A DNA stretch of 64,000 bases from Begonia masoniana (taxonomy: Eukaryota; Streptophyta; Magnoliopsida; Cucurbitales; Begoniaceae), in the NCBI GenBank assembly GCA_022432975.1, contig CM039502.1:21229228-21293227 (forward strand). Reading direction: 5' to 3'. Within the stretch, counting starts at the first letter, position 1. Every line of letters begins with the position of its first letter. The translations under genes and the position numbers were made by a program. Shown piece by piece: positions 1,316 to 56,273 of the stretch. The notes beneath the pieces are model-generated. The model had not been told where the DNA came from, did not search any database, and was given only the letters and a program-made list of their open reading frames with translations.

Positions 1316-2580
1316 GTAAGGCTCGGTTTCCCTTGATTTGGTTCGGTTTTCGGGTTTGTTCATGGCCGACTGTGACGAGCCGGTTTTGGCTCCGATCGCC
1401 GGCCGTTTTAGGTCACTTCCGGCGTGGGTTTGTCCACCCTAGGGCCGGCTATTGTCGATTGGCGGTGGAGCGCTCAATTTGAGCGAAATTCAGTGAATGC
1501 CCGATTAGGGCAATTCGGGTTTGTGGTTTGGAACTTCGATTTTAGGTTAGATTATTCTAATTGGATGTTAGAAGGATAGACTGGTGAAGAAATTGATGAG
1601 TTTTGATGAAAGATCGAAAAAGTGAAATTTTGGGAGAAAGGGCAGTTTCGGGTTTCTGCAAAATTGACCTAGCTCCGGTCATTTGTTTTAAAATTCCTTT
1701 TGGCAGATTAAAATAGGTTATTAGAGGAGTACGTGGCCGCTGGAATCGTTCGATTCCGATAACCGACGCAAAAGTTACGCGCGTTCGAAGTTTAGAGTCG
1801 GTTTTTACCGAACCCGAATTAGTGGCCCGTTTAGTTAGGTCTTAATTGGATTAGGCTAGAAATAGTAATTTGAGAGTAATTGGTGAATGTAGGCTTGATT
1901 TTAATAAAGCTTGAATATTTGTCATAGGTCGAACCATATGTGACGTGATGTGCCAAAAACCAGCAAGCTACGGACGACAGGTAAGTTCTCGTGATTCTTC
2001 TTTGGCCGATTGGCCTACACCGTACGTCGAATGTCGTCTCGAGGAGTTTTGGAGATGCCTTTAGTTAGTTTTGCTCGGTTTGGGTAGCTAGGTCTTAGGA
2101 GTTTATAGTTTATGCTTTTACAGTCTTGATGGTCCATGTTATTGCTTGTTTACTTTATGATAGAGAACTGTCCACGCATCACTTGTTTTAAAGAAAAGCA
2201 TGAAAATGAATTTCCGCACAGAGATTTAAAGAGAACGTAAAGCATAGCATTGGCCTTCGGGCATACAGGCCTTCGGGCATACAGGCCTTCGGGCATACAG
2301 GCCTTCGGGCATATAGTTTACAGGTCACACGAGGTGGGGCTCAGGCACGGCTGTACGTGTTGTAAGCGTGTACCCCCCTCTTCTAGCTGGAAAGAGTAGT
2401 CCGCCCGCTGGATGAGCTCTCTCCGGTTAGAAGGTATAGGATCTCGGTGACACCTATAGTGCATTGCATAGTAAGATAAAAGAAATAAAGCATGGTTTAA
2501 TGAACTCATAGCACAGCATGCATCGCATTTACGTAGAGCTTACTGGGATTTTATCTCATAGTGTATATTGTATGGTGTAG
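1316..2580 (+). other. Putative two-intron leader module of LTR family A
   Basis: Read as RNA: donor 1 is CCG|GTAAGG (1316), acceptor 1 is TCATAG| (1926-1927), a 53-nt exon spans 1928-1980, donor 2 is ACAG|GTAAGT (1981) and acceptor 2 is GGTGTAG|GTGA (AG at 2579-2580). At 2004-2015 lies GGCC-GATT-GGCC, which can fold as a hairpin. The following CTACACCGTAC (2015-2025) can pair with GTATGGTGTAG (2570-2580) over 11 bp with one G-U pair. Splicing is inferred from signals and from the same layout in other families; no transcript data are available. Confidence 0.5.
2253..2316 (+). repeat. Four 16-bp repeats, each a UUCG hairpin
   Basis: The unit GCCTTCGGGCATACAG starts at 2253, 2269, 2285 and 2301 (the last copy ends ATATAG). 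Each holds GCC-TTCG-GGC, a stable tetraloop hairpin type in RNA. The repeat lies inside the putative second leader intron of the solo LTR. Confidence 0.9.
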
Positions 2581-4163: not shown

Positions 4164-7100
4164 TGTTGACTTATTAAGTGTATAAGTCTAAATATGTTTT
4201 TGATGTTGTATTTATATGTTAAGAAATGTAATTTGATTATGTTTAATATACGAGAATAATGAATTATGCATATGAGTTTAATCTGTTGGAAATGCCCTTA
4301 AAAATGGTATTTTGGTTGTCTAACAAATGTGTTTAAGTGTTCAGGGTTAAATAGTAAAACCAGGGCTGAAAATTGATAAACAAAGTGTTTTATCATCCGC
4401 TGGTGTTTAAAGCGTACATCCACCGGTGAAGTAGAAAAGTTACTCACACCGATCGCTCCTCCACCGATCGCTAAAAGCTTACTCACACCGATTGCTAAAC
4501 GACAAAGAAAAGAGGACTTCCACCGATCGCTAAACGACAAAGAAAAGAGGACTTCCACCGATCGCTAAAAGCTTACTCACACCGATCGCTAAAAGCTTAC
4601 TCACACCGATTGCTAAACGACAAAGAAAAGAGGACTTCCACCGATCGCTAAAAGCTTACTCACACCGATTGCTAAACGACAAAGAAAAGAGGACTTCCAC
4701 CGATCGCTAAACGACAAAGAAAAGAGGACTTCCACCGATCGCTAAAAGCTTACTCACACCGATCGCTAAAAGCTTACTCACACCGATCGCTAAAAGCTTA
4801 CTCACACCGATTGCTAAACGACAAAGAAAAGAGGACTTCCACCGATCGCTAAAAGCTTACTCACACCGATTGCTAAACGACAAAGAAAAGAGGACTTCCA
4901 CCGATCGCTAAAAGCTTACTCACACCGATCGCTAAAAGCTTACTCACACCGATTGCTAAACGACAAAGAAAAGAGGACTTCCACCGATCGCTAAACGACA
5001 AAGAAAAGAGGACTTCCACCGATCGCTAAAAGCTTACTCACACCGATTGCTAAACGACAAAGAAAAGAGGACTTCCACCGATCGCTAAAAGCTTACTCAC
5101 ACCGATCGCTAAAAGCTTACTCACACCGATTGCTAAACGACAAAGAAAAGAGGACTTCCACCGATCGCTAAAAGCTTACTCACACCGATTGCTAAACGAC
5201 AAAGAAAAGAGGACTTCCACCGATCGCTAAAAGCTTACTCACACCGATCGCTAAAAGCTTACTCACACCGATCGCTAAACGACAAAGAAAAGAGGACTTC
5301 CACCGATCGCTAAACGACAAAGAAAAGAGGACTTCCACCGATCGCTAAAAGCTTACTCACACCGATCGCTAAAAGCTTACTCACACCGATCGCTAAAAGC
5401 TTACTCACACCGATCGCTAAAAGCTTACTCACACCGATCGCTAAAAGCTTACTCACACCGATCGCTAAACGACAAAGAAAAGAGGACTTCCACCGATCGC
5501 TAAAAGCTTACTCACACCGATCGCTAAAAGCTTACTCACACCGATCGCTAAAAGCTTACTCACACCGATCGCTAAACGACAAAGAAAAGAGGACTTCCAC
5601 CGATCGCTAAAAGCTTACTCACACCGATCGCTAAACGACAAAGAAAAGAGGACTTCCACCGATCGCTAAAAGCTTACTCACACCGATCGCTAAACGACAA
5701 AGAAAAGAGGACTTCCACCGATCGCTAAAAGCTTACTCACACCGATCGCTAAAAGCTTACTCACACCGATCGCTAAAAGCTTACTCACACCGATCGCTAA
5801 AAGCTTACTCACACCGATCGCTAAAAGCTTACTCACACCGATCGCTAAAAGCTTACTCACACCGATCGCTAAAAGCTTACTCACACCGATCGCTAAACGA
5901 CAAAGAAAAGAGGACTTCCACCGATCGCTAAAAGCTTACTCACACCGATCGCTAAAAGCTTACTCACACCGATCGCTAAACGACAAAGAAAAGAGGACTT
6001 CCACCGATCGCTAAAAGCTTACTCACACCGATCGCTAAAAGCTTACTCACACCGATCGCTAAAAGCTTACTCACACCGATCGCTAAACGACAAAGAAAAG
6101 AGGACTTCCACCGATCGCTAAACGACAAAGAAAAGAGGACTTCCACCGATCGCTAAACGACAAAGAAAAGAGGACTTCCACCGATCGCTAAAAGCTTACT
6201 CACACCGATCGCTAAAAGCTTACTCACACCGATCGCTAAAAGCTTACTCACACCGATCGCTAAAAGCTTACTCACACCGATCGCTAAAAGCTTACTCACA
6301 CCGATCGCTAAACGACAAAGAAAAGAGGACTTCCACCGATCGCTAAAAGCTTACTCACACCGATCGCTAAAAGCTTACTCACACCGATCGCTAAACGACA
6401 AAGAAAAGAGGACTTCCACCGATCGCTAAAAGCTTACTCACACCGATCGCTAAAAGCTTACTCACACCGATCGCTAAAAGCTTACTCACACCGATCGCTA
6501 AAAGCTTACTCACACCGATCGCTAAACGACAAAGAAAAGAGGACTTCCACCGATCGCTAAAAGCTTACTCACACCGATCGCTAAAAGCTTACTCACACCG
6601 ATCGCTAAACGACAAAGAAAAGAGGACTTCCACCGATCGCTAAAAGCTTACTCACACCGATCGCTAAAAGCTTACTCACACCGATCGCTAAACGACAAAG
6701 AAAAGAGGACTTCCACCGATCGCTAAAAGCTTACTCACACCGATCGCTAAAAGCTTACTCACACCGATCGCTAAAAGCTTACTCACACCGATCGCTAAAA
6801 GCTTACTCACACCGATCGCTAAAAGCTTACTCACACCGATCGCTAAAAGCTTACTCACACCGATCGCTAAAAGCTTACTCACACCGATCGCTAAAAGCTT
6901 ACTCACACCGATCGCTAAAAGCTTACTCACACCGATCGCTAAACGACAAAGAAAAGAGGACTTCTGTTGCGAATTTCATTTCTGAGCCCTAACGAGCGAA
7001 ATTTTTGAATACTCTGTATTTTCTACACCTCTCAATTCTGTAACTTGAGATTTTTATCTTTGAGAGAGTGTAGGTTGTGCAAACATTTTACAAACTTAAA

Positions 7101-14063: not shown

Positions 14064-15094
<1,031 letters not shown>

Positions 15095-19032: not shown

Positions 19033-20004
19033 GTAAGAATCTACTGTTTTGGAACGTTAGATTTTGGTTTTCACAAAGTTATACGGTTAGGGTTTCGTTT
19101 AGGGTTTCGTTAAAAACGTGAATTAATGATGGAAATCGATAAGTTACCGTGATTATGGCTCTAATGGGCGTATTTATTATTATTGGTCAGTGTTAGATGA
19201 ATTAATGAGGGTGCTTGAGGTTTTGGGTGGTTGGAGGTTTTAAAAAAACCCCATTAATGGAGGTTTAGAAATTCACGAGCATGAATTGTTCGATAAAATG
19301 CCTCAACGAGTTAAATTAGAGTTTAGAAAATTTCCTTTAGTTAGGAGTTTGTAGTTTTCGAAACTCCATGGTTTAGACTCGATTTTAAATGACGAATGTT
19401 GTGAATTGCCATAGGTGAACAACGCTCGTGGATGGAGCTTAAATTGCAACGGACGCGAGGTAAGTCTTCATGACTTGTTTGGCCAATTGGCCTACTCCGT
19501 AAGAATAGTTGTTGATCGAGGTTTTTGGTGAATTCAGATGCTTCAGGGAGATAGGATGTGTAGTTTAAGTTGATTGTGTATTAGAATGCTTTCCTAGGTT
19601 CTTTTATGCATTGTTCTATGTTTTTACTCGTATTGCACGATCAATGTTCATGCACCAATGTTTTCAAAAAGCATAGAAAATGAATTTTCGCATATGTTTT
19701 CATGAAAAGAAACGCTTAATGAAAAGATATGAAATGTATGTAATCCCGGTCACGTCGGGGTGGGGTTCAGACATGGCTGTCCTGAGAGGAGGAGCATGTT
19801 TTCCCCCTGCAGATGGAAATGGTTATCTAACCGCGAGATGTGTCATCTCTATCTGGTGAGTCAACCCCCAGTGACACCTCCCGCTATGTAACTAAATAAT
19901 GAAAAAGAAATGCATGTTTTTACAAACCCTGCATGCATAACATTCATCTTCATTTACGAGACTTGCTGAGCTCTTTAGCTCAAAGTTTATTTTATATGGT
20001 GTAG
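19033..20004 (+). other. Putative two-intron leader module of LTR family B (L1)
   Basis: Donor 1 is CCCTAT|GTAAGA (19033; the L2 copy has CTAG|GTAAGA). Acceptor 1 is GCCATAG| (19413-19414), the exon is 19415-19459 (45 nt), donor 2 is GCGAG|GTAAGT (19460) and acceptor 2 is TATGGTGTAG| (19995-20004). The hairpin GGCC-AATT-GGCC is at 19481-19492. The next word, CTACTCCGTA, pairs with TATGGTGTAG with one mismatch and one G-U. In L2 the word is CTACACCGTA (42160-42169) and pairs over 10 bp with one G-U. Confidence 0.5.
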
Positions 20005-20539
20005 GTGAACTCGATACAGGTGAGGACGACGTTCCTCCACCCGACGCATGAGCACGTTGATGGAGGATGGCCCGTGGGAGTGTGCTGGCGCAGTCGACGT
20101 GTATTTTGACCCATGGGGACATCACGTAGGTATTTTGGGATTTTTATAGTTAAAAACATAGATAAATGTATAGGGATATTTAATTGGGCTGACGAGTGAT
20201 AGGTTAGAAAACATAAGTGTTTGGATGTTTTGGTGAATTCGTGTAATGAAATTATTTTGCTAAGCTTTTAATTCGGATTATACTGGAATTCTTTGGAATT
20301 ATTTTAGGTTGATCCACGGATATGCTCGAGTTTTAGAGTTATCCACGCAGTTGGATTTTGTGATTTTATGATGATGTGTTTGTTAGGAATGATGTTTAGA
20401 AGTGGGTTGATGAAAGGGAATGGTAGAGGATAGAAATGGTGAAGGAGAAAGGAATGTTAAGTGTGTGTGTGCGTGATGTGCTGGGTGAACGAAGGAAAGA
20501 AGGGAGGAGGAATGAAGAGGGGCAACTTGCTGGAGTTCA

Positions 20540-20866: not shown

Positions 20867-22145
20867 TGTAACACCCGGTTCTATTAAACCGATTCCTTTT
20901 TTTCTTTTTAAATTAATGGCACACTTTATATGATAATAATAAAGGTAGGGTTAATGGATGTCTAGGCAAGGGCATAAGGGTAATTGGAAATTTGAAAGTG
21001 GATAACGTATTTAAGGAAAGGGGTTTTGGGTTTAATGCACTGTAGCCGCCACTATTTCCTATTGTCCCTCTCGGCCTTCAGCTCTCCAGCAGAAACCTCT
21101 GGGCGATTTCTTTCTTGCTCGACTCTCTTTCAACTTAGGTACATTTTTCCTCATTCTCTTACGTTTTAGCAGTTAGATAACTGAGGGAGTACAATGTGAG
21201 GATTTCAAGGATGCTGTAGATGAGAGTAGGTTCGGGTTTTTAGGGATAAATGGAAATGTGCAAGCAGTAGAGTTCCAAACTGGTTTTCTTGTTCTTCTGG
21301 TTAATTTTTGGTAAAGTTTAATGAAGGTTTGATTGATGTTCTGTTATGAACTTAGGTGAGCGAGCTTCTAAAGTAGCTTACAGCCGAGCGATTTCCAGAA
21401 GAGTCAGGTAAGTAGAGTATGCTTGTGCCTTCGGGCCTACATCACAAAACAGTAGGGTTGTGCATACTTGAATGTGTTTGTATGTCATGCATCATATTTT
21501 GAAAATTATGCGAAAATGAATTTACATGAAATGGCATGGTAAGGAATGAACAGACTGTAACAGTTGTCAAGGGAACTAATTTGTCCCTTAACCAAGAGAG
21601 AGGATGTATGACTTTGGGGAAGTGATCCAAACCCCAATTTCACAGGGGGATCTGAGCAGTTGTTAAGGGAACTAATCTGTCTCTTAATCAAGAGAGAGGA
21701 TGTATGACTTTGGGAGAAGTGATCCAACTCCCGATTTCACAGGGGGATCACATCAGAATGAATGCATATGCAACTGAGATGAGAAAGTAGAAACTGCATG
21801 ATTAGGAATTTATGTTTCAGCATTCCATTTCATTATTGCTTTACTTACTTAGCATTAAGCTAATAGATGAGTTTTGTGATATAGGTGAAGAGGCAACAGA
21901 AGGTGTGTTCTCTGAACATGTTGAGGATTAGGCTGTTGAGGGAGCACTTTAATGCCACGGATTGGTGATTCTGATGAGGCGGTTTAACTGATGTCAGTAG
22001 ATGTGAAGGTTTAGTGAACCATAATTTATTTTAAGCGTTGTTGAGTTTTCTAATAACATAAGTGGTTTTAATGTTTTTGAATACGTTGGTGAGAATTTTC
22101 TGATAATGATACTCTGTTGGATTTAATGGTGGTGTTTACTGAAGG
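20867..22145 (+). mobile_element. 5' LTR of element C, 3' half deleted
   Basis: Colinear with 26297-27448 of the 3' LTR, then broken at about 22145 where gag coding starts. The leader module is present: donor 1 ACTTAG|GTACAT (21139), acceptor ACTTAG| (21354-21355), exon 21356-21407, donor 2 GTCAG|GTAAGT (21408), hairpin GCC-TTCG-GGC (21427-21436), acceptor GATATAG| (21883-21884). A ~96-bp direct duplication lies at 21561-21752. Confidence 0.85.
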
Positions 22146-25891: not shown

Positions 25892-26299
25892 ATGCTGAAT
25901 AAAAGACGCAGAGAACTAGAGTTTGAAGTAGGTAATGAGGTCTTTTTTAAGGTATCACCATTCAAAGGAGTTGTGAGATTTGGTAAGAGAGGCACGTTGA
26001 ACCCCAGATTTATTGGACCCTTTCTGATCTTAAAAAGGATCGGGAAGGTAGCTTACGAGTTACAGCTACCCACCTCTATGGAAGGAATCCACAATGTGTT
26101 CCATGTTTCCATGTTGAAGAAGTGTGTACGGGATCCATCATATATTGTGGAACAGCAGAACATTGAAATTCATCCTACCCTTACCTATGAGGAGAAACCA
26201 GTAAGGATCTTAGACTATGCTGTGAAAGTGTTGCGCAACAAAGAGGTTCCACTAGTGAAAGTCTTATGGCACAACCAGAACATAGAGAAGACAACTTGA
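25892..26299 (+). pseudogene. Element C integrase C-terminus, cut off in the chromodomain-like end
   Basis: Another frame. It has 'RRRELEFEVGNEVFFKVSPF' and 'VFHVSMLKKCV' (the GPY/F-type part), then 'VPLVKVLWHNQNIEKTT'. The expected 'ATWE' ending is replaced by 3' LTR sequence at about 26297 through the deletion. Confidence 0.85.
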
Positions 26300-26711
26300 A
26301 AGTGGATAACGTATTTAAGGAAAGGGGTTTTGGGTTTAATGCACTGTAGCCGCCACTATTTCCTATTTTCCCTCTCGGCCTTCAACTCTCCAGCAGAAAC
26401 CTCTGGGCGATTTCTTTCTTGCTCGACTCTCTTTCAACTTAGGTACGTTTTTCCTCATTCTCTTGCGTTTTAGCAGTTAGATAACTGAGGGAGTACAATG
26501 TGAGGATTTCAAGGATGCTGTAGATGAGAGTAGGTTCGGGTTTTTGGGGATAAATGGAAATGTGCAAGCAGTAAAGTTCCAAACTGGTTTCCTTGTTCTT
26601 CTGGTTAATTTTTGGTAAAGTTTAGTGAAGGTTTGATTGATGTTCTGTTATGAACTTAGGTGAGCGAGCTTCTAAAGTAGCTTACAGCCGAGCGATTTCC
26701 AGGAGAGCCAG

Positions 26712-27190
26712 GTAAGTAGAGTATGTTTGTGCCTTCGGGCCTACATCACAAAACAATAGGGTTGTGCATACTTGAATGTGTTTGTATGTCATGCATCATA
26801 TTTTGAAAATTATGCGAAAATGAATTTACATGAAATTAGCATGGTAAGGAATGAACAGACTGTAACAGTTGTGAAGGAAACTAATCTGCCCCTTAACCAA
26901 GAGAGAGGATGTATGACTTTGGGGGAAGTGATCCAAACCCCAATTTCACAGGGGGATCTGAGCAGTTGTTAAGGGAACTAATCTGCCCCTTAATCAAGAG
27001 AGAGGATGTATGACTTTGGGAGAAGTGATCCAACTCCCAATTTCACAGGGGGATCAGATCAGAACGAATGCATATGCAACTGAGATGAGAAAGTAGAAAC
27101 TGCATGATTAGGAATTTATGTTTCAGCATTCCATTTCATTATTGCTTTACTTACTTAGCATTAGGCTAATAGATAAGTTTTGTGATGTAG
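26712..27190 (+). other. Putative leader intron 2 of family C with a 14-bp end-to-end helix
   Basis: Donor is GCCAG|GTAAGT (26712). The hairpin GCC-TTCG-GGC (26731-26740) is followed directly by CTACATCACAAAAC (26741-26754). This is the exact reverse complement of GTTTTGTGATGTAG (27177-27190), whose last two bases are the acceptor AG before GTGAAGAGG. A ~96-bp duplication lies inside. A branch-like hairpin TTAGC-ATTAG-GCTAA stands about 25 nt before the acceptor. Confidence 0.55.
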
Positions 27191-27594
27191 GTGAAGAGGC
27201 AACAGAAGGTGTGTTCTCTGAACATGTTGAGGATTAGGCTGTTGAGGGAGCACTTCAATGCCACAGGATTGGTGATTCTGATGAGGCGGTTTAACTGATG
27301 TCAGTAGATGTGAAGGTTTAGTGAACCATAATTTATTTTAAACTTTGTTGAGTTTTCTAATAACAGAAGGGGTTTTAATGTTTTTGAATACGTTGGTGAG
27401 ACTTTTCTGATAATGATACTCTGTTGGATTTAATGGTGGTGTTTACTAAAGTTTGGAGTAATACACGGATTTAAATAGTTTGAACGATTTTTAGTAAAAT
27501 GCTCAAATTCTTTTGGTAGTCGGAGTTTTCTTTGTTATAGTGAAAATGTTGCTATGCTGTTTCCGTTGAGTATTTTTTTGATCTACCGGTAGAT

Positions 27595-28484: not shown

Positions 28485-28583
28485 AAAAAGAAAAATTTCA
28501 TGGGAATTTAAGAGTATTAAAATTAGGGAATTTCAAGGGTACAGTATTTAGGGTCGCTACAGTTATGGTATCAGAGCCCCCGG
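28485..28583 (+). mobile_element. End of LTR L1 and primer-binding site of element B
   Basis: 28485-28561 matches the last 77 bp of the solo LTR at 46338 and ends GTCGCTACA. Five bases later TGGTATCAGAGCCCCCGG (28566-28583) matches the start of a primer site for initiator tRNA-Met. A GTAAGT (28649) and TTTTATAG| (28713) frame a possible 65-nt intron before the gag ATG at 28727. Confidence 0.85.
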
Positions 28584-32331: not shown

Positions 32332-32908
32332 GATATTGTAATATCCGGTTTTACGGGATATTAATATTTTAATGTATGATGGCATTTTTGTAAATATGTC
32401 AAATCATGTCCGTTTTACGAACGGAAAGCGTCATTAAGATCCTAACGATTAATAGGAATTTTAAGAAATTTACGAGAATTTTCGGAGTAATAACGCTATA
32501 TTTCGAGAAATTACGTTTCTCGTAATATGAATGACGTTTTAGTAAAAATAGTAAACGATGTCCGAATTGTGAACGGATAGTTTTAATAAATCCCAAATAA
32601 GAAGTTGGAGTTATTGACAAAATAAGAGGATTTGGAGAAAGCGAATCGTTGGCTAATTAACGAAACAAAGGACGAAACAAATAGAAATAAGAGCAAAGGG
32701 CATTATAGTAATTTACCAAACCAAATTTATTAAAAAGCCATTTGGCTTCTTCTTCTTCTTCTCCACGCCATTTCCTCTTTCTCTCTGTTTCTTTTCTCTC
32801 CTCCCCGTGGCTTCCTTTTCTCTTCAAGGCGATTCCTCACGTCCGACCACCGTGCTTCCTCCGCTTATCCTCTATTCTTCTTGTTTTCTCTTCCAATTGA
32901 CGCTCTAG

Positions 32909-33841
32909 GTAAGGTTCTATGGTTTTGGATCTTTAGATTTCGATTTAGCGATTTAAGACGATTAGGGTTCGTTTAGGGTTTCGTTAAAAACACGATTTAG
33001 GATTCAAAAATCCATAGGTTTACCATTGTTATCGATATAATGAACGTATTGAGTGTTATTAGACGAAGTTACTTGATTTAGGACGAACGTTAAAGTTTTA
33101 GGATTTTCGAGTTTGTGGAAAATGCTCGTTAATAGAGGTTTTGAAGTATCGAATGTGTAATGTTAGCAAAAATGCGTTAGTAAAGTTAGTTAGAACTCTA
33201 AGGAATTTCCTTAGTTAATGTTTCGTTAACTTTTGACGTTTAATAGTTTAAATTCGTTTTGACGATAATAATGTGAAATTTGCTCTAGGTGAACGCTCGT
33301 GGACGGAGATTGGATTTCATCGGACACGAGGTAAGTTCTCGTGATCTTCTCTGGCCGATTGGCCTACACCATACGTCGAGGTCGTCTCGAGGAGTTTTGG
33401 TGATGCGTTTGTTTAAATTGTTTTGGTTGGGTAATTAGGTTAGTCGTTTATAGGTTATGTTTGTTTATCGTCTTAATGGTACACATGCTGGTTGTTTACT
33501 TTATGCATTTGACTGCTCATGCATCACATCTGTTAAAGCATATGTTTAAGGGAACGAAATGAATCTACGTAATCTGTTATCTGGTCACGGCGAGGTGGTT
33601 TAGACCTCGGTGACATTCTGTTTGCGACCTAATTAAAAAGTAAAATGAACCAACAAAATCTACGTAATCTGTTATCTGGTCACGGCGAGGTGGGTTTAGG
33701 CCTCGGTGACGATCTGCCTGCGACGTAATGAATCTGAATCTGTTATCTGCATGTTTTATGAATGACATAAGCATCTGCACGCATTCTGCATGTACGAGAG
33801 CTTGCTGAGATTTTTATCTCATAGATGTCTGTATGGTGTAG
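32909..33841 (+). other. Putative two-intron leader module of LTR family D
   Basis: Donor 1 is CTCTAG|GTAAGG (32909), acceptor 1 is TGCTCTAG| (33287-33288), the exon is 33289-33330 (42 nt), donor 2 is ACGAG|GTAAGT (33331) and acceptor 2 is GGTGTAG|GTGAC (33840-33841). The hairpin GGCC-GATT-GGCC is at 33353-33364. CTACACCATAC (33364-33374) is the exact reverse complement of GTATGGTGTAG (33831-33841). A stem GAGAT-TTTT-ATCTC stands upstream of the acceptor. The 3' LTR copy has lost the acceptor G (GTGTATGTGAC at about 39507). Confidence 0.5.
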
Positions 33842-34329
33842 GTGACTTCAACATAGGTGAGGACGAGATCCCTCCACCTGAGGAGTGATGCAGTTGACGG
33901 GGATGGTCGCAGGAGTGCGTTGGCGCAGTCGAGGCGTTTCATGACCCGTGGGGATGTAGGTATTTTGGGATGTTTTGAGTAGAAAGCGTACAGATAGAAC
34001 ATTTTAGGGTGTTTGGTTCTGTATAGTGGGTAGGTTACGTTGTGAGTTTTAAAACGTTTCAAAAATGTATTTTGTAAATGTTTGATATTAGGGGAATCGT
34101 TCAGTTTTTAAACCGAACCACGTGGTTTGTTTTTACGAAACTAGGCTATGTTTTAAACGTGTTTGAGTCGCTTATTTGGTCGATGAAATGAAGTGTAATG
34201 TGAAGTGTTTTAGTTGTGTTTTGAGTTTAAATAGGTATTTACGTTAAGTGCATGAATTAAGAGAAGGAAAAGAGTAAAGTAAATGAAGAAAAGGAGAAGA
34301 AGAGAAAGAAGAGGTGAGGAGGCAGCGTG

Positions 34330-34580
34330 GATGGCGACCAATCGCCAAGAGGTGGCGATCGGTTACCAGGAGGAACCACGCTCTGGAAGATTTCCAGAGC
34401 GTGTGGCGATTGATCGCCTGGTTTCTGGCGATCGATCGCCCCTCGATGGTTACATGGTGAGCACGGATCGCCTGGGAGGCGATCGCTAGGCGATCGAGCG
34501 ATCGCCTAAGGGGCGATGGTTCGCCATGCGAAGATCGCTTCTGGCGATCGATCGCCTGTTTTGGGGGATCGATCGTCCAC
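34330..34580 (+). repeat. GCGATCGATCGC-rich block and palindrome in D 5' LTR
   Basis: Repeated GGCGATCGATCGCC-type words and the stem CTCTGG-AAGATT-CCAGAG. The same block in the 3' LTR is at about 40000-40270. Confidence 0.85.
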
Positions 34581-34850
34581 AATGTTTTACACGACTTTTG
34601 CCGTTTTTGCCCCCTTCTCCTCTGCCGATTGTTTTCATTTAATTTTAATGGTTTTATTTAAATTGTTTTAAGTTTAATTTAAATGGTTTAACAACTTAGA
34701 CTTCAACGATTTTAGTTTCAATCCCGATTCCGATTTTAAAATTTTATTTCTGCTCAAACATCAGGTAAAAAGTTTTAAAAAATATATATATATATATATA
34801 TAAATATATGGTACGGAAAATTGGGTACAGGGTTAGGGTAGTTACATTTA

Positions 34851-34868
34851 TGGTATCAGAGCCCCCGG
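34851..34868 (+). other. Primer-binding site of element D
   Basis: TGGTATCAGAGCCCCCGG, four bases after the LTR end, is identical to that of element B. A GTAAGT at 34934 and TATATAG| at 34998 frame a possible 65-nt intron before the gag ATG at 35012. Confidence 0.85.
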
Positions 34869-38005: not shown

Positions 38006-40516
38006 TGTAATACCCGGCTTTACGGAATATTAATATTTTAATGTATAATGACATTTTTGTAAATATGTCAAATCATATCCGTTTTGCAAACGGAAAGCGT
38101 CATTACGATCCTAACAATTAATAGGAATTTTAAGGAATTTACGAGAATTTTCGGAGTAATAACGCTATATTTCGAGAAATTACGTTTCTCGTAATATGAA
38201 TGACGTTTTAGTAAAAATAGTAAACGAGGTCCGAATTGTGAACGGACAGTTTTAATAAATCCCAAATAAGAAGTTGGAGTTATTGACAAAATAAGAGGAT
38301 TTGGAGAAACCGAATCGTTGGCTAATTAACGAAACGAAGGACGAAACAAATAGAAATAAGAGCAAAGGGCATTATAGTAATTTACCAAACCAAATTTATT
38401 AAAAAGCCATTTGGCTTCTTCTTCTTCTTCTCCACGCCATTTCCTCTTTCTCTCTGTTTCTTTTCTCTCCTCCCCGCGGCTTCCCTTTCTCCTCACGGCG
38501 ATGCCTCACGTCCGACCACCGTGTTTCCTCCGCTCATCCTCCATTCTTCGTGTTTTCTCTTCCAATCGACGCTCTAGGTAAGGTTCTATGGTTTTGGATC
38601 TTTAGATTTGATTTTAGCGATTTAAGACGATTAGGGTTCGTTTAGGGTTTCGTTAAAAACGCGATTTAGGATTCAAAAATCCATAGGTTTACCGTTGTTA
38701 TCGATATAATGAACGTATTGAGTGTTATTGGACGAAGTTACTTGATTTAGGACGAACGTTAAAGTTTTAGGATTTTTGAGTTTGTGGAAAATGCTCGTTA
38801 ATAGAGGTTTTGAAGTATCGAATGTGTAATGTTAGCAAAAATGCGTTAGTAAAGTTAGTTATAACTCTAAGGAATTTCCTTAGTTAATGTTTGTTAACTT
38901 TGGACGTTTAATAGTTTAAATTCGTTTTGACGATAATAATGTGAAATTTGCTCTAGGTGAACGCTCGTGGACAGAGATTGGATTTCATCGGACACGAGGT
39001 AAGTTCTCGTGATCTTCTCTGGCCGATTGGCCTACACCATACGTCGAGGTCGTCTCGAGGAGTTTTGGTGATGCGTTTGTTTAAATTGTTTTGGTTGGGT
39101 AGTTAGGTTAGTCGTTCATAGGTTATGTTTGTTTATCGTCTTGATGGTACACATGCTGGTTGTTTACTTTATGCATTTGACTGCTCATCCATCACATCTG
39201 TTAAAGCATATGTTTAAGGGAACGAAATGAATCTACGTAATCTGTTATCTGGTCACGGCGAGATGGTTTAGACCTCGGTGACATTCTGTCTGCGACCTAA
39301 TTAAAAAGTAAAATGAACCAACAAAATCTACGTAATCTGTTATCTGGTCACGGCGAGGTGGGTTTAGGCCTCGGTGACGATCTGTCTGCGACGTAATGAA
39401 TCTGAATCTGTTATCTGCATGTTTTATGAATGACATAAGCATCTGCACGCATTCTGCATGTACGAGAGCTTGCTGAGATTTTTATCTCATAGCTGTCTGT
39501 ATGGTGTATGTGACTGCAACATAGGTGAGGACGAGATCCCTCCACCTGAGGAGTGATGCAGTTGACGGGGATGGTCGCGGGAGTGCGTTGGTGCAGTTGA
39601 GGCGTTTCATGACCCGTGGGGATGTAGGTATTTTGGGATGTTTTGAGTAGAAAGCGTACAGATAGAACATTTTAGGGTGTTTGGTTCTGTATAGTGGGTA
39701 GGTTACGTTGTGAGTTTTAAAACGTTTCAAAAATGTATTTTGTAAATGTTTGATATTAGGGGAATCGTTCAGTTTTTAAACCGAACCACACGGTTTGTTT
39801 TTACGAAACTAGGCTATGTTTTAAACGTGTTTGAGTCGCTTATTTGGTCGATGAAATGAAGTGTAATGTGAAGTGTTTTAATTGTGTTTTGAGTTTAAAT
39901 AGGTATTTACGTTAAGTGCATGAATTAAGAGAAGGAAAAGAGTAAAGTAAATGAAGAAAAGGAGAAGAAGAGAAAGAAGAGGTGAGGAAGCAGCGTGGAT
40001 GGCGACCAATCACCAGGAGGTGGCGATCGGTTACTAGGAGGAACCACGCTCTGAAAGATTTCCAGAGCGTGTGGCAATCGATCGCCTGGTTTCTGGCGAT
40101 CGATCGCTTGGTTTCTGGCGATCGATCGCCCCTCGATGGTTACACGGCGATCACGGATCGCCTGGGAGGCGATCGCTAGGCAATCGAGTGATTGCCTAAG
40201 GGGCAATGGTTCGCCATGCGAAGATCGCTTCTGGCTATCAATCGCCTGTTTTGGGCGATCAATCGCCACAATGTTTTACACGGCTTTTGCAGTTTTTGCC
40301 CCCTTCTCCTCTGCCGATTGTTTTCATTTAATTTTAATGGTTTTATTTAAATTGTTTTAAGTTTAATTTAAATGGTTTAACAACTTAGACTTCATTGATT
40401 TTAGTTTCAATCCCGATTCCGATTTTAAAGTTTTATTTCCGCTCAAACGTCAGGTAAAAAGTTTTAAATATATAAATATGGTACAGAAAATTGGGTACAG
40501 TGTTAGGGTCGTTACA
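38006..40516 (+). mobile_element. 3' LTR of element D
   Basis: TGTAATACCCGG to GTCGTTACA. Compared with the 5' LTR it has scattered single-base changes, a shorter TA tract and a lost AG at the second leader acceptor. Confidence 0.92.
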
Positions 40517-41239
40517 GATATGCTTAGAGCTTGCGTGCTGGAGTTTCATGGCTCGTGGAGCCGATATTTGCCCCTGATTGAGTTCTCGTACAACAACAGC
40601 TTCCAGGCTACGATTGGCATGGCTCCGTACGAAGCGCTTTATGGTAAAAAATGCAGGTCTCCGCTATATTGGGATGAGGTAGGTGAGGCTAGCGTAGTTG
40701 GCCCAGACATTTTACAGCAAACAGCGGAGAAGATCGTTGTTATCAGACAACGTATCGAGGTAGCACAGAGCCGCCAAAAGATCTTTGCTGACACTAGACG
40801 GAGGGAATTGGAGTTCAATGAAGGCGACGAGGTATATTTGAAGATTTCTCCGTTTAAGGGCGTTATGCAGTTTGGAAGAAGAGGCAAGTTAAACCCTCGT
40901 TATATGGGGCCATTTCCTATTTTGAAGAGGATCGTGACTATGGCGTACAGGTTACAGCTTCCAACGTCCGTAGAAGGTATTCACGATGTGTTTCACGTGT
41001 CCATGCTTAGAAAATATGTGCGTGATCCATCACACGTCATAGAGACAAGAGATATCGAGGTGCAACCAACACTAACCTATGTGGAGAGGCCAGTGCAGAT
41101 TCTAGAGTCCTCTATCAAGGTGTCGCGCAATAAGGAAATCCCGCTGGTAAAGGTCCTGTGGCGGAATCACGATGTAGAGGAAGCTACTTGGGAGAGGCAG
41201 CAGGATATGATGTCTAAGAATCCTGAACTGTTTGTATAA
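40517..41239 (+). pseudogene. Element B integrase, C-terminal part with chromodomain-like end
   Basis: Resumes directly after element D with '[20 protein letters not shown]', then '[20 protein letters not shown]', '[13 protein letters not shown]', 'RRRELEFNEGDEVYLKISPF', 'VFHVSMLRKYV' and 'VPLVKVLWRNHDVEEATWE', with a stop at 41237-41239. This part has no internal stop. The end is the usual plant chromovirus-type ending of pol. Confidence 0.9.
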
Positions 41240-41595: not shown

Positions 41596-42872
41596 CTCCC
41601 AGGTGATTTTTGCTTCTCTCGCGCGTTTCTTCTTCCGGCGACGAAAGCTCACTTTTCGGCGATCCATCCTCCGCGTTTCTTCTTTGTCTTTGCTCCCTAG
41701 GTAAGAATCTACTGTTTTAGAACGTTAGATTTTTGTTTTCGTAGAGTTATACGGTTAGGGTTTCATTCAGGGTTTTGTTAAAAATGTGAATTAAGGTTGG
41801 AAATCGATAGGTTATCGTGATTATAGCTCTAATGGGCGTATTTATTATTATTGGTGAGTGTTAGATGAATTAATGAGGGTGCTTGAGGTTTTGGGTGGTT
41901 GGAGGTTTTAAAAAAACCCCATTAATGGAGGTTTAGAAATTCACGAGCATGAATTGCTCGATAAAATGCCTCAACGAGTTAAATTAGAGTTTAGGAAATT
42001 TCCTTTAGTTAGGAGTTTGTTGTTTTCGAAACTCCATGGTTTAGACTCGATTTTAAATGACGAATGTTGTGAATTGCCATAGGTGAACAACACTCGTGGA
42101 TGGCGCTTAAATTGCAACGGACGCGAGGTAAGTCTTCGTGACTTGTTTGGCCGATTGGCCTACACCGTAAGAATAGTTGTTGATCGAGGTTTTTGGTGAA
42201 TTCAGATGCTTCAGGGAGATAGGATGGATAGTTTAAGTTGATTGTGTATTAGAATGCTTTCCTAGGTTCTTTTATGCATTGTTCTATGTTTTTACTCGTA
42301 TTGCACGATCCATGTTCATACACCATGTTTTCGAAAAGCATAGAAAATGAATTTCCACATATGTTTTCATGAAAAGAAACGCTTAATGAAAATATATGAA
42401 ATGTATGTAATCCCAGTCACGTTGGGGTGGGGTTCAGACATGGCTGTCCTGAGAGGAGGAGCATGTTTTCCCCCTGCAGATGGAAAGAGCTATCTAACCG
42501 CGAGATGTACCCTCTCTATTTGGTGAGTCAACCCCCGGTGACACCTCCCGCTATGTAACTAAATAATGAAAAAGAAATGCATGTTTTTACAAACCCCGCA
42601 TGCATAACATTCATCTTCATTTACGACACTTGCTGAGCTCTTTAGCTCATAGTTTATTTTCTATGGTGTAGGTGAATTCGATACAAGTGAGGATGACGTT
42701 CCTCCACCCGAAGCATGAGCACGTTGATGGAGGATGGCTCGTGGGAGTGTGCTGGCGCAGTCGACACGTATTTTGACCCGTGGGGACATCACGTAGGTAT
42801 TTTGAAATTTTGATAGTTAAAAATATAGATAAATGTAAAGGGATGTTTAATTGGGCTGACAAGTGATAGGTT
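41240..42872 (+). mobile_element. Polypurine tract and right LTR (L2) of element B, truncated
   Basis: AATTTGAGGACAAAATTTTA and AAGGTGGATGGAA precede the LTR start TGTAACACCCGG at 41280. L2 follows L1 up to GATAGGTTAGA (about 42872), then changes to MULE sequence, with TAGA shared by both parents at the join. The last ~730 bp of the LTR are missing. A poly-A tract at about 41562-41590 is longer than in the other copies. Confidence 0.88.
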
Positions 42873-44017: not shown

Positions 44018-46608
44018 TAACACCTGATTTTACGAGATTTTATTATTCCAATAAATAATGACATTTTTGTAAATATATCAAATTAAGTCCGTTTTACGAA
44101 CGGAAAGTTTTAATGGAGCCTTAATAATAAATTAGAATTTATGGTGAAATAAGAAAATTTGGAGAAAACAAACCGTTAGCTAAATAACGAAACAAAGGAT
44201 GAAACTAATATAAAATCAAAGGAAGGGCAAAATGTTAAATTGATAAGCCAAAATTAATAAAAACATCACAAATCCCCTTCCCCTCCCACGATTTCTCTTC
44301 TGCAAAAGAAAAAAAATCACTCCCATGCGATTTTTGCTTCTCTCACGCGTTTCTTCTTCTGGCGACGAAAGCTCGCTTTCCGGCGATCCATCCTTCGCGT
44401 TTCTTCCTTGTCTTTGCTCCCTATGTAAGAATCTACTGTTTTGGAACGTTAGATTTTGGTTTTCACAAAGTTATACGGTTAGGGTTTCGTTTAGGGTTTC
44501 GTTAAAAACGTGAATTAATGATGGAAATCGATAAGTTACCGTGATTATGGCTCTAATGGGCGTATTTATTATTATTGGTCAGTGTTAGATGAATTAATGA
44601 GGGTGCTTGAGGTTTTGGGTGGTTGGAGGTTTTAAAAAAACCCCATTAATGGAGGTTTAGAAATTCACGAGCATGAATTGTTCGATAAAATGCCTCAACG
44701 AGTTAAATTAGAGTTTAGAAAATTTCCTTTAGTTAGGAGTTTGTAGTTTTCGAAACTCCATGGTTTAGACTCGATTTTAAATGACGAATGTTGTGAATTG
44801 CCATAGGTGAACAACGCTCGTGGATGGAGCTTAAATTGCAACGGACGCGAGGTAAGTCCTCATGACTTGTTTGGCCAATTGGCCTACTCCGTAAGAATAG
44901 TTGTTGATCGAGGTTTTTGGTGAATTCAGATGCTTCAGGGAGATAGGATGTGTAGTTTAAGTTGATTGTGTATTAGAATGCTTTCCTAGGTTCTTTTATG
45001 CATTGTTCTATGTTTTTACTCATATTGCACGATCTATGTTCATGCACCAATGTTTTCGAAAAGCATAGAAAATGAATTTTCGCATATGTTTTCATGAAAA
45101 AAAAAAACGCTTAATGAAAAGATATGAAATGTATGTAATCCCGGTCACGTCGGGGTGGGGTTCAAACATGGCTGTGCTGAGAGGAGGAGCATGTTTTCCC
45201 CCTGCAGATGGAAAGGGCTATCTAACCGCGAGATGTGTCCTCTCTATCTCATGAGTCAACCTCCAGTGACACCTCCCGTTATGTAACTAAATAATGAAAA
45301 AGAAATGCATGTTTTTACAAACCCTGCATGCATAACATTCATCTTCATTTACGAGACTTGCTGAGCTCTTTAGCTCAAAGTTTATTTTATATGGTGTAGG
45401 TGAACTCGATACAGGTGAGGACGACGTTCCTCCACCCGACGCATGAGCACGTTGATGGAGGATTGCCCGTGGGAGTGTGCTGGCGCAGTCGACGTGTATT
45501 TTGACCCATGGGGACATCACGTAGGTATTTTGGGATTTTTATAGTTAAAAACATAGATAAATGTATAGGGATATTTAATTGGGCTGACGAGTGATAGGTT
45601 AGAAAACATAAGTGTTTGGATGTTTTGGTGAATTCGTGTAATGAAATTATTTTTCTAAGCTTTTAATTCAGATTATACTGGAATTCTTTGGAATTATTTT
45701 AGGTTGATCCACGGATATGCTCGAGTTTTAGAGCTATCCACGCAGTTGGATTTCGTGATTTTATGATGATCTGTTTGTTAGGAATGATGTTTAGAAGTGG
45801 GTTGATGAAAGGGAATGGTAGAGGATAGAAATGGTGAAGGAGAAAGGAATGTTAAGCGTGTGTGTGCGTGATGTGCTGGGTGAACGAAGCAAAGAAGGGA
45901 GGAGGAATGAAGAGGGGCAACTTGCTGGAGTTCAAACTCTAGGAGCCGATCAATCGCAGACAGTGGGGTTATCGAACACAGAACTCTCTGGAATTCCAGA
46001 GAGCTTCCCGATCGTTCGCCAGAAGAGGGCCGAACGATCGGCTCTTGAGGCTGCGTTCTAGAAGAAATTCCAAAGCAGCAGTCAATCGATGTCCAAAAAT
46101 GGGGCGATCAATCAGCTGGACAAGGGCCGATCGATCGGCTGTCAAGTGGCCGATCGATCGCCCCTTTGTTTCTTCGCCTCGGACGTTTTTTCCCTCGGTT
46201 CAATTGGCCGACTGTTTTTCTTTTGTTTTAATGGTTTTCTTTAGACTTCAATTAATGTTAGAAAAAGAAAAAATTCACGGGAATTTAAGGGTATTGAAAT
46301 TAGAGAATTTAAAGGGTACAGTATTTAGGGTCGCTACAGATGGGTCTTCCGAGATTGATGGAGCGAAACGTATATTAAATGAGATTTGTTCCAAGACAAA
46401 GAGACGATGAACATGCGATAAAGTTAGTTTATGTTTACCTAATGTTCACCGTCTCTTTGTCTTGGAACAAATTTCATTTAATATATTTTTCGCTCCATCA
46501 ATCTCGGAAGATCCATCAATATAATTGAGTACTCCACTCTTTTCATAATCTAACGAAACGTATTTTGACAACTTTTCTAAAGCTGCCTTGCAAGCATTAA
46601 GCATTAAA
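43926..46608. repeat. Long inverted repeat in the MULE tail, left arm split by the solo LTR
   Basis: The left arm is 43926-44017 plus 46344-46414; the right arm is 46442-46608; the loop is about 27 nt (46415-46441). Leaving out the LTR and one target copy, the arms are about 165 bp with only scattered mismatches (for example ..TTGTTCCAAGACAAAGAGAC.. in both). The minus strand of the right arm reads as an open stretch of about 55 codons ('KLSKYVSLDYEKSGVLNYID' ... 'ILNEICSKTKRR' stop) that I do not recognise; the left arm has the same ending with a few changes. Confidence 0.88.
44018..46338 (+). mobile_element. Solo LTR of family B (L3)
   Basis: TGTAACACCTGA to GTCGCTACA, 2,321 bp, flanked by GATGG at 44013-44017 and 46339-46343. 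Its target site is the same MULE position as that of L1. It carries the leader module (hairpin GGCC-AATT-GGCC; acceptor TATGGTGTAG at about 45397) and the GATCGATCG block (about 45940-46160). Confidence 0.95.
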
Positions 46609-48592: not shown

Positions 48593-50620
48593 CGTTACGC
48601 GAGACGTCACCTCATGCTACTTGCACGTTAACACGAGCATTACTCTATGCCCGTTACGACGAGCATTCAAACCTCTAGTCAACCCTCTAGTGCTTACTCT
48701 TGCACGTTAACAACGAGGCATTCAACTCTCTAGTGCATGTTCTTGCACGTTAACGACGAGGCGTTCAACCCTCTAGTGCTTACTCTTGCACCTTAACGAC
48801 GAGGCGTTCAACCCTCTAGTGCTTACTCTTGCACCTTAACGACGAGGCGTTCAACCCTCTAGTGCTTACTCTTGCACCTTAACGACGAGGCGTTCAACCC
48901 TCTAGTGCTTACTCTTGCACCTTAACGACGAGGCGTTCAACCCTCTAGTGCTTACTCTTGCACCTTAACGACGAGGCGTTCAACCCTCTAGTGCTTACTC
49001 TTGCACCTTAACGACGAGGCGTTCAACCCTCTAGTGCTTACTCTTGCACCTTAACGACGAGGCGTTCAACCCTCTAGTGCTTACTCTTGCACCTTAACGA
49101 CGAGGCGTTCAACCCTCTAGTGCTTACTCTTGCACCTTAACGACGAGGCGTTCAACCCTCTAGTGCTTACTCTTGCACCTTAACGACGAGGCGTTCAACC
49201 CTCTAGTGCTTACTCTTGCACCTTAACGACGAGGCGTTCAACCCTCTAGTGCTTACTCTTGCACCTTAACGACGAGGCGTTCAACCCTCTAGTGCTTACT
49301 CTTGCACCTTAACGACGAGGCGTTCAACCCTCTAGTGCTTACTCTTGCACCTTAACGACGAGGCGTTCAACCCTCTAGTGCTTACTCTTGCACCTTAACG
49401 ACGAGGCGTTCAACCCTCTAGTGCTTACTCTTGCACCTTAACGACGAGGCGTTCAACCCTCTAGTGCTTACTCTTGCACCTTAACGACGAGGCGTTCAAC
49501 CCTCTAGTGCTTACTCTTGCACCTTAACGACGAGGCGTTCAACCCTCTAGTGCTTACTCTTGCACCTTAACGACGAGGCGTTCAACCCTCTAGTGCTTAC
49601 TCTTGCACCTTAACGACGAGGCGTTCAACCCTCTAGTGCTTACTCTTGCACCTTAACGACGAGGCGTTCAACCCTCTAGTGCTTACTCTTGCACCTTAAC
49701 GACGAGGCGTTCAACCCTCTAGTGCTTACTCTTGCACCTTAACGACGAGGCGTTCAACCCTCTAGTGCTTACTCTTGCACCTTAACGACGAGGCGTTCAA
49801 CCCTCTAGTGCTTACTCTTGCACCTTAACGACGAGGCGTTCAACCCTCTAGTGCTTACTCTTGCACCTTAACGACGAGGCGTTCAACCCTCTAGTGCTTA
49901 CTCTTGCACCTTAACGACGAGGCGTTCAACCCTCTAGTGCTTACTCTTGCACCTTAACGACGAGGCGTTCAACCCTCTAGTGCTTACTCTTGCACCTTAA
50001 CGACGAGGCGTTCAACCCTCTAGTGCTTACTCTTGCACCTTAACGACGAGGCGTTCAACCCTCTAGTGCTTACTCTTGCACCTTAACGACGAGGCGTTCA
50101 ACCCTCTAGTGCTTACTCTTGCACCTTAACGACGAGGCGTTCAACCCTCTAGTGCTTACTCTTGCACCTTAACGACGAGGCGTTCAACCCTCTAGTGCTT
50201 ACTCTTGCACCTTAACGACGAGGCGTTCAACCCTCTAGTGCTTACTCTTGCACCTTAACGACGAGGCGTTCAACCCTCTAGTGCTTACTCTTGCACCTTA
50301 ACGACGAGGCGTTCAACCCTCTAGTGCTTACTCTTGCACCTTAACGACGAGGCGTTCAACCCTCTAGTGCTTACTCTTGCACCTTAACGACGAGGCGTTC
50401 AACCCTCTAGTGCTTACTCTTGCACCTTAACGACGAGGCGTTCAACCCTCTAGTGCTTACTCTTGCACCTTAACGACGAGGCGTTCAACCCTCTAGTGCT
50501 TACTCTTGCACCTTAACGACGAGGCGTTCAACCCTCTAGTGCTTACTCTTGCACCTTAACGACGAGGCGTTCAACCCTCTAGTGCTTACTCTTGCACCTT
50601 AACGACGAGGCGTTCAACCC
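48593..50620 (-). repeat. 43-bp tandem array, about 43 near-perfect copies plus degenerate edge
   Basis: The unit contains CTCTAGTGCTTACTCTTGCA, CCTTAACGACGAGG and CGTTCAAC. From about 48762 to 50620 the copies look identical; at 48593-48760 three or four variant copies are seen (CACGTTAAC instead of CACCTTAAC). The right edge breaks sharply into CCCTGAAATGGCGCC. Confidence 0.95.
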
Positions 50621-50947: not shown

Positions 50948-52343
<1,396 letters not shown>

Positions 52344-55829: not shown

Positions 55830-56273
55830 CTACATCACAAGTTAAAAACTATGAAAAAACTCAGTAAGTGAAAATACGTGCAAGTTGCAAAATTTTTACT
55901 TTTGCCGAATCCTGTTAACAATTACACACAGGTTGAAACTCAACCTTTTTTTTAAGACTTAGTCATCTCATGTCTTCGTCATCTTTTACTTTTACTTTTA
56001 ACGTTCAAGCTCTTGCTATCACAAATTTGCCATCAATTCTATCATTTTCATACACATGCAAATGTCTTACCCATTTTATCCTTTAAACAATTCTATGTCA
56101 ATGTCCTAACATTGTGCTCAACCATTGAAAACGTGTGATAAAATAAAATAGTAATAAAGAAAATAATATTTATCATGTGATGTAGGGCCGTAGCCAAAAC
56201 GTTGTATTTACACTTACTTGGATTCCGAGCAATTAGTTTATATCGAGATATTCCAAAACTCCAAAATAACATC
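55830..56273 (-). other. Putative leader exon 2 and intron 2 of LTR family F
   Basis: Minus strand: acceptor 1 TTGAGCAG|, exon 56273-56218 (56 nt), donor 2 TCCAA|GTAAGT (56217), acceptor 2 GATGTAG|GTGAA (last intron base 55830). The hairpin GGC-TACG-GCC is at 56195-56186. The next ten bases, CTACATCACA (56185-56176), are the exact reverse complement of TGTGATGTAG at the intron end (55839-55830). Donor 1 may be CAAC|GTAAGA at about 61749, beyond the E insert. Confidence 0.5.

Follow-up and report, generated by a model that had tools for sequence, protein, structure and literature searches.

The LTRs of an abundant group of plant Ty3/gypsy elements contain a segment whose two ends are complementary, and this pairing covaries between families at pairs 6, 9, and 11. 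In the 64,000-nucleotide stretch of DNA that was analysed (the window), the module occurs nine times: once in element A, three times in B, twice in C, twice in D, and once, on the minus strand, in F. The module is probably an intron, and its signals strongly suggest this identity; it would be the second intron of an untranslated leader, in elements that appear to be of chromovirus type where a coding region is present. A small, stable hairpin (hairpin 1) is predicted about 20 nucleotides past the donor. Directly after it, arm 1 would pair with arm 2 in a long-range helix of 10 to 14 bp, arm 2 would end in the acceptor AG, and a second hairpin just inside the helix would contain a branch-point-like word. 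The structure is well supported, and we infer that it participates in the control of splicing.

In the 3' LTR of C, the putative leader intron 2 (GTAAGT ... GTAG) extends over 479 nucleotides of the plus strand, 26712..27190, and is preceded by a candidate leader exon 2 of 52 nucleotides that runs from acceptor 1 to the donor (26660..26711, plus strand). Hairpin 1, GCC-UUCG-GGC (26731..26740), abuts arm 1, CTACATCACAAAAC (26741..26754). The branch-point-like word TTACTTAG and hairpin 2, TTAGC-ATTAG-GCTAA, share positions 27151..27169, and the last bases of arm 2, GTTTTGTGATGTAG (27177..27190), are the acceptor AG; all of these features are on the plus strand. The C 5' LTR copy (21408..21884, plus strand; arms 21437-21450 and 21871-21884) has pair 4 broken (C.A).

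The other copies have the same layout. The D 5' LTR copy (33331..33841, plus strand) has arm 1 at 33364-33374, arm 2 at 33831-33841, hairpin 1 at 33354-33363, and hairpin 2 at 33806-33821. In the D 3' LTR copy (38999..39509, plus strand; arms 39032-39042 and 39499-39509), pair 1 is broken and the acceptor AG is changed to AT. The A copy is at 1981..2580 of the plus strand (arms 2015-2025 and 2570-2580). The three B copies, also on the plus strand, are L1 (B1; 19460..20004, arms 19492-19501 and 19995-20004), L2 (B2; 42128..42671, arms 42160-42169 and 42662-42671), and L3 (B3; 44852..45399, arms 44884-44893 and 45390-45399), and pair 5 is broken (T.T) in the first and third. The F copy occupies 55830..56217 of the minus strand (arm 1 56185-56176, arm 2 55839-55830), with GGC-UACG-GCC as hairpin 1. 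Arm 1 starts 29 to 34 nucleotides past the GTAAGT donor in all nine copies, and the 3' end of arm 2 (10 to 14 nucleotides) is the acceptor AG, or AT in the D 3' LTR. When G-U is counted, pairing is unbroken over ten positions in five of the nine, and one pair among the first ten is broken in the remaining four (B1, B3, C 5' LTR, and D 3' LTR). The length of the intron varies widely among window and genomic copies.

A preliminary description of this DNA had listed pairings (arm positions as located in the sequence) of 14/14 for C (26741 with 27177), 11/11 for D (33364 with 33831), 10/10 for F on the minus strand (56185 with 55839), 11 pairs including one G-U for A (2015 with 2570), and 10 pairs including one G-U for L2 of B (42160 with 42662), and had reported that pairs 6, 9, and 11 are altered on both sides between D and C. 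All of these words, positions, and changes are present in the sequence. The list omitted the four copies with one broken pair, and the wider structure with its two hairpins was not described there. The arms do pair as proposed.

The module lies wholly inside the LTRs of C (20989-22144 and 26293-27451, 96.9% identical) and of D (32337-34852 and 38006-40522, 95.1% identical). B is present as three near-identical copies and A resembles D; A and F are presumed to be LTRs from the module that they share with the others. Coding pieces beside the C, D, and B LTRs have Pfam matches to RT, RNase H, integrase, and chromodomain, the RT-RNaseH-integrase arrangement plus chromodomain of chromovirus Ty3/gypsy elements, and an iMet-type PBS word, TGGTATCAGAGC, is found at 28566 and 34851. 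These domains and this type of PBS word are common to the window elements and to Tekay/Del chromoviruses, the putative clade of the host elements on the basis of LTR and domain features.

Among the 120 relatives listed, the named proteins are from flowering plants. Viral contigs held no relative by protein, DNA pattern, or alignment, no relative was found in phages, and plasmids gave three distant RT matches below 60% identity. Genome contigs gave no match to the DNA pattern, and the protein search of genome contigs gave five contaminant-like contigs (L001-L005). These are filed as bacterial (Streptomyces, Microbacteriaceae, Robertmurraya, Labilibacter, and Mangrovicoccus) and encode a window-like Ty3/gypsy pol, which is probably contamination; L005 has only 103 residues of pol on a 1.16-Mb contig.

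A GT donor, a branch-point-like word, and an AG acceptor, the signals of U2 spliceosomal introns, are all present in the module. T is more frequent in the introns of C and D than in exon 2, though exon 1 also has a high T content. At loci found with an exact arm (L006-L013 and L114-L133), GTAAGT is upstream at 12 of 13 sense arm-1 sites and GTGA comes next at 8 of 13 sense arm-2 sites; in the larger sample described below, GTAAGT was part of the search pattern. The plant-like contig L004 holds the acceptor side only, with TACTGAC, a pyrimidine stretch, and GGTATAG/GTGG ahead of the LTR end and PBS, and the species that it comes from is predicted to carry an arm 1 near CTATACCGCA. In a search for spliced retrocopies, a spliced-type junction word of one family turned up at one place in the 795 Mb; the control had 0, chance alone predicts about 0.4, and a single place is roughly what chance would produce.

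To gauge chance, GGTAAG donors (25 + 11) were combined with AGG acceptors 300-700 nucleotides away on both strands, with arm 1 at an offset of 25-40 and its letters free, for 3776 tests. The scan returned four unbroken 10-bp matches with at most two G-U pairs and seven matches that had no more than one mismatch. Each of the seven is a known module, and the scan gave no other match in the window. F and the D 3' LTR were outside the reach of the scan and are missing from it because F has another donor (AAGTAAGT) and the D 3' LTR has lost its AG. The intron interiors of C, D, and F resemble each other only at the level of shuffles (z 0.0, 0.6, 0.7), those of A-C and B-C are slightly alike (z 3.1, 3.7), and those of A, B, and D are related (z 8.5-13.6). 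By duplex energy, none of 2000 shuffles was as good as the D 5' LTR copy (D5), and 9 to 28 were as good as A, B2, F, and the 3' LTR copies C3 and D3. On duplex energy alone, the pairing is unremarkable in B1, B3, and the C 5' LTR (C5), with 108, 126, and 500 of 2000 shuffles as good. Among 1500 other real window segments, the number with pairing of equal strength ranges from 3 for D5 to 461 for F. A duplex test on energy alone is too blunt.

Hairpin 1 consists of a 3-bp stem and a four-base loop, with arm 1 directly after it. It reads GCC-UUCG-GGC in C, GGC-UACG-GCC in F, and GCC-GAUU-GGC or GCC-AAUU-GGC in A, B, and D, so the loops in C and F are of the UNCG type and adjoin the helix. Hairpin 2 starts inside the branch-point-like word TTRCTKRG, which begins 38-42 nucleotides before the acceptor end in all nine window copies, the word being the search pattern itself. 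In an alignment of the three helices, where the nine copies make eight distinct rows, 94.9% of cells are paired, and slid versions of the alignment reach at most 44.8%. Two-sided changes affect 6 of the 20 pairs (one in hairpin 1, three in the arms, and two in hairpin 2), and the covariation score of 0.279, against 0.133 in shuffled alignments, is reached by none of 500 shuffles. The arm helix alone also scores above all 500 shuffles in the window rows, but its count of two-sided pairs (three) is matched by 305 of the 500. Hairpin 1 and, more weakly, hairpin 2 belong to the structure. In genomic modules, hairpin 2 is present in 92 of 98, with stems that include TGAG/CTCA, TTAGC/GCTAA, TAAGC/GCTTA, and TGAGCT/AGCTCA; it also forms in 42% of shuffled tails.

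RNAalifold, applied to the same 66-column window rows, recovered the long helix and hairpin 1 and paired the base of hairpin 2 slightly differently. When the introns are folded alone, the best structure includes the arm helix in five of nine copies, and the pairing probability of the arms is lowest in C5, at 0.02, and close to 1 in B. When short flanks are added, the arm helix is part of the best fold for C3, D5, and F; in stability, only the C3 fold is unusual (z -2.19), and D5 (-0.69) and F (-0.84) are not. Rfam gave no matches at the gathering score in the window and none to E 1 in 26293-27450. The donor of D is also in the 7-nucleotide loop of a perfect 6-bp hairpin, CACGAG-GTAAGTT-CTCGTG (33325-33343), which inspection by eye did not show in copies A, B, C, and F of the window.

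The module is very abundant in the host genome assembly of 795 Mb. Arm 1 of C, CTACATCACAAAAC, has 13,911 + 13,828 occurrences (control 7 + 4). Both C-type arms, with two free positions per arm, a distance of 400-430 nucleotides between them, and GTG next, are found together in 2,447 + 2,392 places (control 0). The donor with hairpin 1 occurs 8,811 + 8,711 times as GCCTTCGGGC (control 0), 5,167 + 5,104 times as GGCCNATTGGCC (control 0), and 268 + 258 times as GGCTACGGCC (control 2). These donor-plus-hairpin 5' ends sum to 28,319, or about 28,000, possible overlap between patterns included.

For a large sample, modules were taken by donor and hairpin from loci L006-L153 and the window, and the acceptor was chosen by the branch-point word and AG/GTG with pairing ignored. 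This left 103 modules after 41 without the acceptor signature, 5 duplicates, and 2 near an end were dropped. The loci are not random: many were picked for unlike spacers, and L114-L133 were picked because just one exact arm had been listed for them. Among the first ten positions, all ten are paired in 79 modules, nine in 13, and fewer in 11, so that 92 of 103 have at least nine pairs; some modules with fewer than nine are wrongly chosen acceptors. An earlier pass with a slightly different rule found an acceptor for 91 of 118, with ten pairs in 76 of the 91. Within L134-L153, 12 of 20 were without a matching acceptor inside the 0.7 kb fetched. Further families include one at L135, in which CTACACCATAGAAC pairs with GTTCTATGGTGTAG, and one at L089, in which CTACACCACAAAGT pairs with ACTTTGTGGTGTAG. 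The family at L114 and L117 has GGCC-GTA-GGCC or a close variant as hairpin 1 and GTTTTGTGATGTAG as arm 2, and its arm 1 departs from the exact complement of arm 2.

Covariation was analysed in 29 families, defined by flanks grouped at 75% identity. Three rows in which arm 2 does not end in TAG were removed from the family test of positions 4-14, and two further rows were removed from the independent-row-pair and per-pair family tests. Over positions 4-14, Watson-Crick pairs number 243 of 319, against 197.7 when shuffled and 217.7 when shuffled within hairpin class; neither shuffle reached the observed count in 20,000 trials. The signal is carried by pair 6 (Watson-Crick in 28 of 29 families, 14.5 by shuffle; within-class P 0.0002), pair 9 (26 of 29, 14.3 by shuffle; P 0.001), and pair 11 (22 of 29, 10.8 by shuffle; P 0.0002). 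Pair 12 covaries more weakly (P 0.04; within class 0.016), and in the 29 families pair 13 does not exceed the within-class shuffle and pair 14 exceeds neither shuffle. At pairs 1-5, 7, 8, and 10 there is not enough variation for a covariation test.

Tests that consider phylogeny gave less. In an R-scape-like G test of 81 rows against a tree null, the arms are non-significant (E 1.9 for pair 9, 3.5 for pair 6, and 18 for pair 11), as are hairpin 1 (E 0.33) and a column pair of hairpin 2 (E 0.10). A same-branch parsimony test observed 8 changes against 9.8 (P 0.81). Since the tree-based tests are non-significant, independent substitution events are few. Independent row pairs gave 18 against 9.1 over 14 positions (P 0.00015) and a non-significant 3 against 1.8 in the core ten (P 0.22). 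The preliminary description held that complementarity lost in most copies, or no excess of paired substitutions in a large alignment, would count against it. In copies from the same genome, this check did not refute the proposal: pairing is kept in most and the family shuffles show an excess, with the reservation that tests which take phylogeny into account are weak or negative. Both the pairing and its covariation between families are firm, and the proposal of paired segment ends with good intron signals is supported genome-wide.

Exon 3 begins with a short, conserved reading frame. In D (33842..33888, plus strand), the frame G/GT GAx ... would close with an acidic peptide before a stop, and similar starts occur at 2581-2627, at 20005-20051, and in genomic copies, with end peptides such as DFNIGEDEIPPPEE*. 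From the acceptor, 88 of 90 rows keep this frame open over 12 codons or more (45 and 0 in the other frames). The dN/dS of the exon 3 frame, from row pairs that are non-independent, is low in two of three classes, at 0.34 in F (516 row pairs) and 0.38 in A/B/D (63), with an excess at codon position 3; the C/G value, 0.57, does not fall below that of another frame (0.52, 22 pairs). In the same comparison of rows, exon 2 is flat, with no clear coding signal. Unspliced RNA would provide an in-frame ATG before a stop in 18 of 40 (A/B/D), 14 of 22 (C/G), and 2 of 36 (F) rows, and an in-frame ATG lies upstream through exon 2 in 6, 3, and 1 rows, respectively. Because an in-frame ATG is found by either route in part of the rows, the exon 3 frame neither proves nor excludes splicing. 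An ordinary gene made of exons 1-2-3 was considered and rejected: exon 2 is without a clear coding signal, and the 150 nucleotides of exon 1 examined in D contain no in-frame ATG. The arms were likewise rejected as codons, with arm 2 varying by steps that change amino acids and the reading phase of hairpin 2 shifting between families.

The module is most simply read as a mask over the 3' splice site, because the acceptor AG forms the end of the helix and hairpin 2 contains the branch-like word. The helix would close the intron to a short loop and bury the 3' splice site, and the structure would most likely slow use of this site, dividing transcripts between spliced mRNA and intact genomic RNA. 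Under the logic of LTR replication, an intron kept in the LTR means that unspliced RNA is reverse transcribed. Because these LTRs retain the intron, the RNA that was reverse transcribed was unspliced there, and some RNA must escape splicing. In retroviral leaders, RNA structure near splice sites tunes the amounts of spliced and genomic RNA, although the usual retroviral acceptor is downstream of the LTR, unlike that of the LTR module. We see an even chance that the module is an LTR-borne leader intron, with a helix that hides its 3' splice site and sets the balance of spliced and genomic RNA; the direction and purpose of such control are what we infer. One of the main rivals is that the same intron and helix instead aid splicing by bringing a donor and acceptor 400-700 nucleotides apart to within about 30 nucleotides. 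In the window families, arm 1 lies 29-34 nucleotides past the donor and arm 2 is at the acceptor, which fits this idea, as does the wide variation in intron length, but inclusion of the AG in arm 2 and of the branch-point-like word in hairpin 2 should hinder recognition, and we consider such help unlikely. The other main rival, that the structure serves unspliced RNA in packaging, dimerisation, export, or strand transfer in R/U5, is quite unlikely in our judgement: it gives no account of a helix that, in the families observed, stops at the acceptor AG. In its favour, the structure exists in unspliced RNA only, and the hairpins next to the helix in C and F have UNCG-type loops. Such an intron-borne structure would mark genomic RNA, as do retroviral packaging signals located between splice sites.

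Perhaps, instead, the pairing has no function, and arm 2 is kept as splice site or as codons that read on into exon 3 and arm 1 for other reasons, with coincidence and shared descent accounting for the rest. The non-significant tree-aware tests agree with this, and in many copies the open frame of exon 3 extends into arm 2. However, the geometry scan has no other match, the within-class family shuffles are exceeded, and arm 2 varies by amino-acid-changing substitutions, all of which make a functionless pairing very improbable. It is similarly improbable that the arms are relic terminal inverted repeats (TIRs) of an introner-like DNA transposon that brought the intron: arm 1 is 29-34 nucleotides inside the intron, exon ends are related among modules, and relic repeats should decay independently, yet pairs 6, 9, and 11 covary between families. 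Introner families with TIRs are known, as passages of PMC9860276 relate. Returning to masking, a more elaborate form of it is conceivable but somewhat doubtful. Here, tens of thousands of copies in this plant retrotransposon group would be self-contained LTR splice switches, in which a three-helix RNA buries the branch point and acceptor and keeps genomic RNA intact, and, when opened, gives an mRNA whose next exon encodes the conserved acidic peptide.

Passages of PMC12786077 describe plant LTR elements as generally without introns, with Ogre and EVD as exceptions, and passages of PMC3735527 place a BARE1 intron in gag. Ogre, Evade (EVD), and BARE1 have spliced and unspliced RNAs with different fates (PMC12786077, PMC3735527, and PMC6317226, in part), and in the same passages their intron is in or between gag and pol, whereas the donor and acceptor here are both within the LTR. 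The C and D modules are found inside LTRs and not in or between gag and pol, and paired intron ends are a feature of the LTR module, unlike what these passages give for the three elements. Sunflower copia elements are spliced, and no Tekay member is in the expressed set in passages of PMC7730604. In the open-licence literature searched, no LTR intron was found for the Tekay/Del clade or for any plant.

Introners and symmetrical stwintrons are spliceosomal introns with complementary ends and possible double-stranded RNA (passages of PMC8469720 and PMC9860276), and the putative LTR intron is alike in this. According to the same passages, they spread to new gene positions, and stwintron repeats are 45-55 nucleotides, have been suggested to be dispensable for excision, and are degenerate in more divergent copies. 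In contrast, the arms of the LTR module are 10-14 nucleotides, lie 29-34 nucleotides inside the donor, and covary between families. The flanks of the module are related in rows that were found by the module itself.

The balance between translation and reverse transcription of retrotransposon transcripts is called a major question in the abstract of PMC3735527. With a covarying structure that ends at an acceptor and lies within the LTRs of so abundant a group, this question becomes testable. Close to genes, solo LTRs could serve as structured introns that are ready for use.

Other repeats were observed in the window. The interior of intron A (2252-2315) has four tandem 16-nucleotide units similar to GGCCTTCGGGCATACA, in which the C-type hairpin 1 motif recurs, and the D LTR beyond the module (34320-34580 and 40000-40270) has many GGCGATCGATCGCC-like palindromes by eye. 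Long tandem arrays are a CATTCAT heptamer at 14064-15094, a mix of 24/35-nucleotide units at 4462-6943, and a 68-nucleotide unit at 57706-60642. A run of 1394 consecutive C (50950-52343), possibly an assembly artefact, is beside a 43-nucleotide tandem array (48679-50620).
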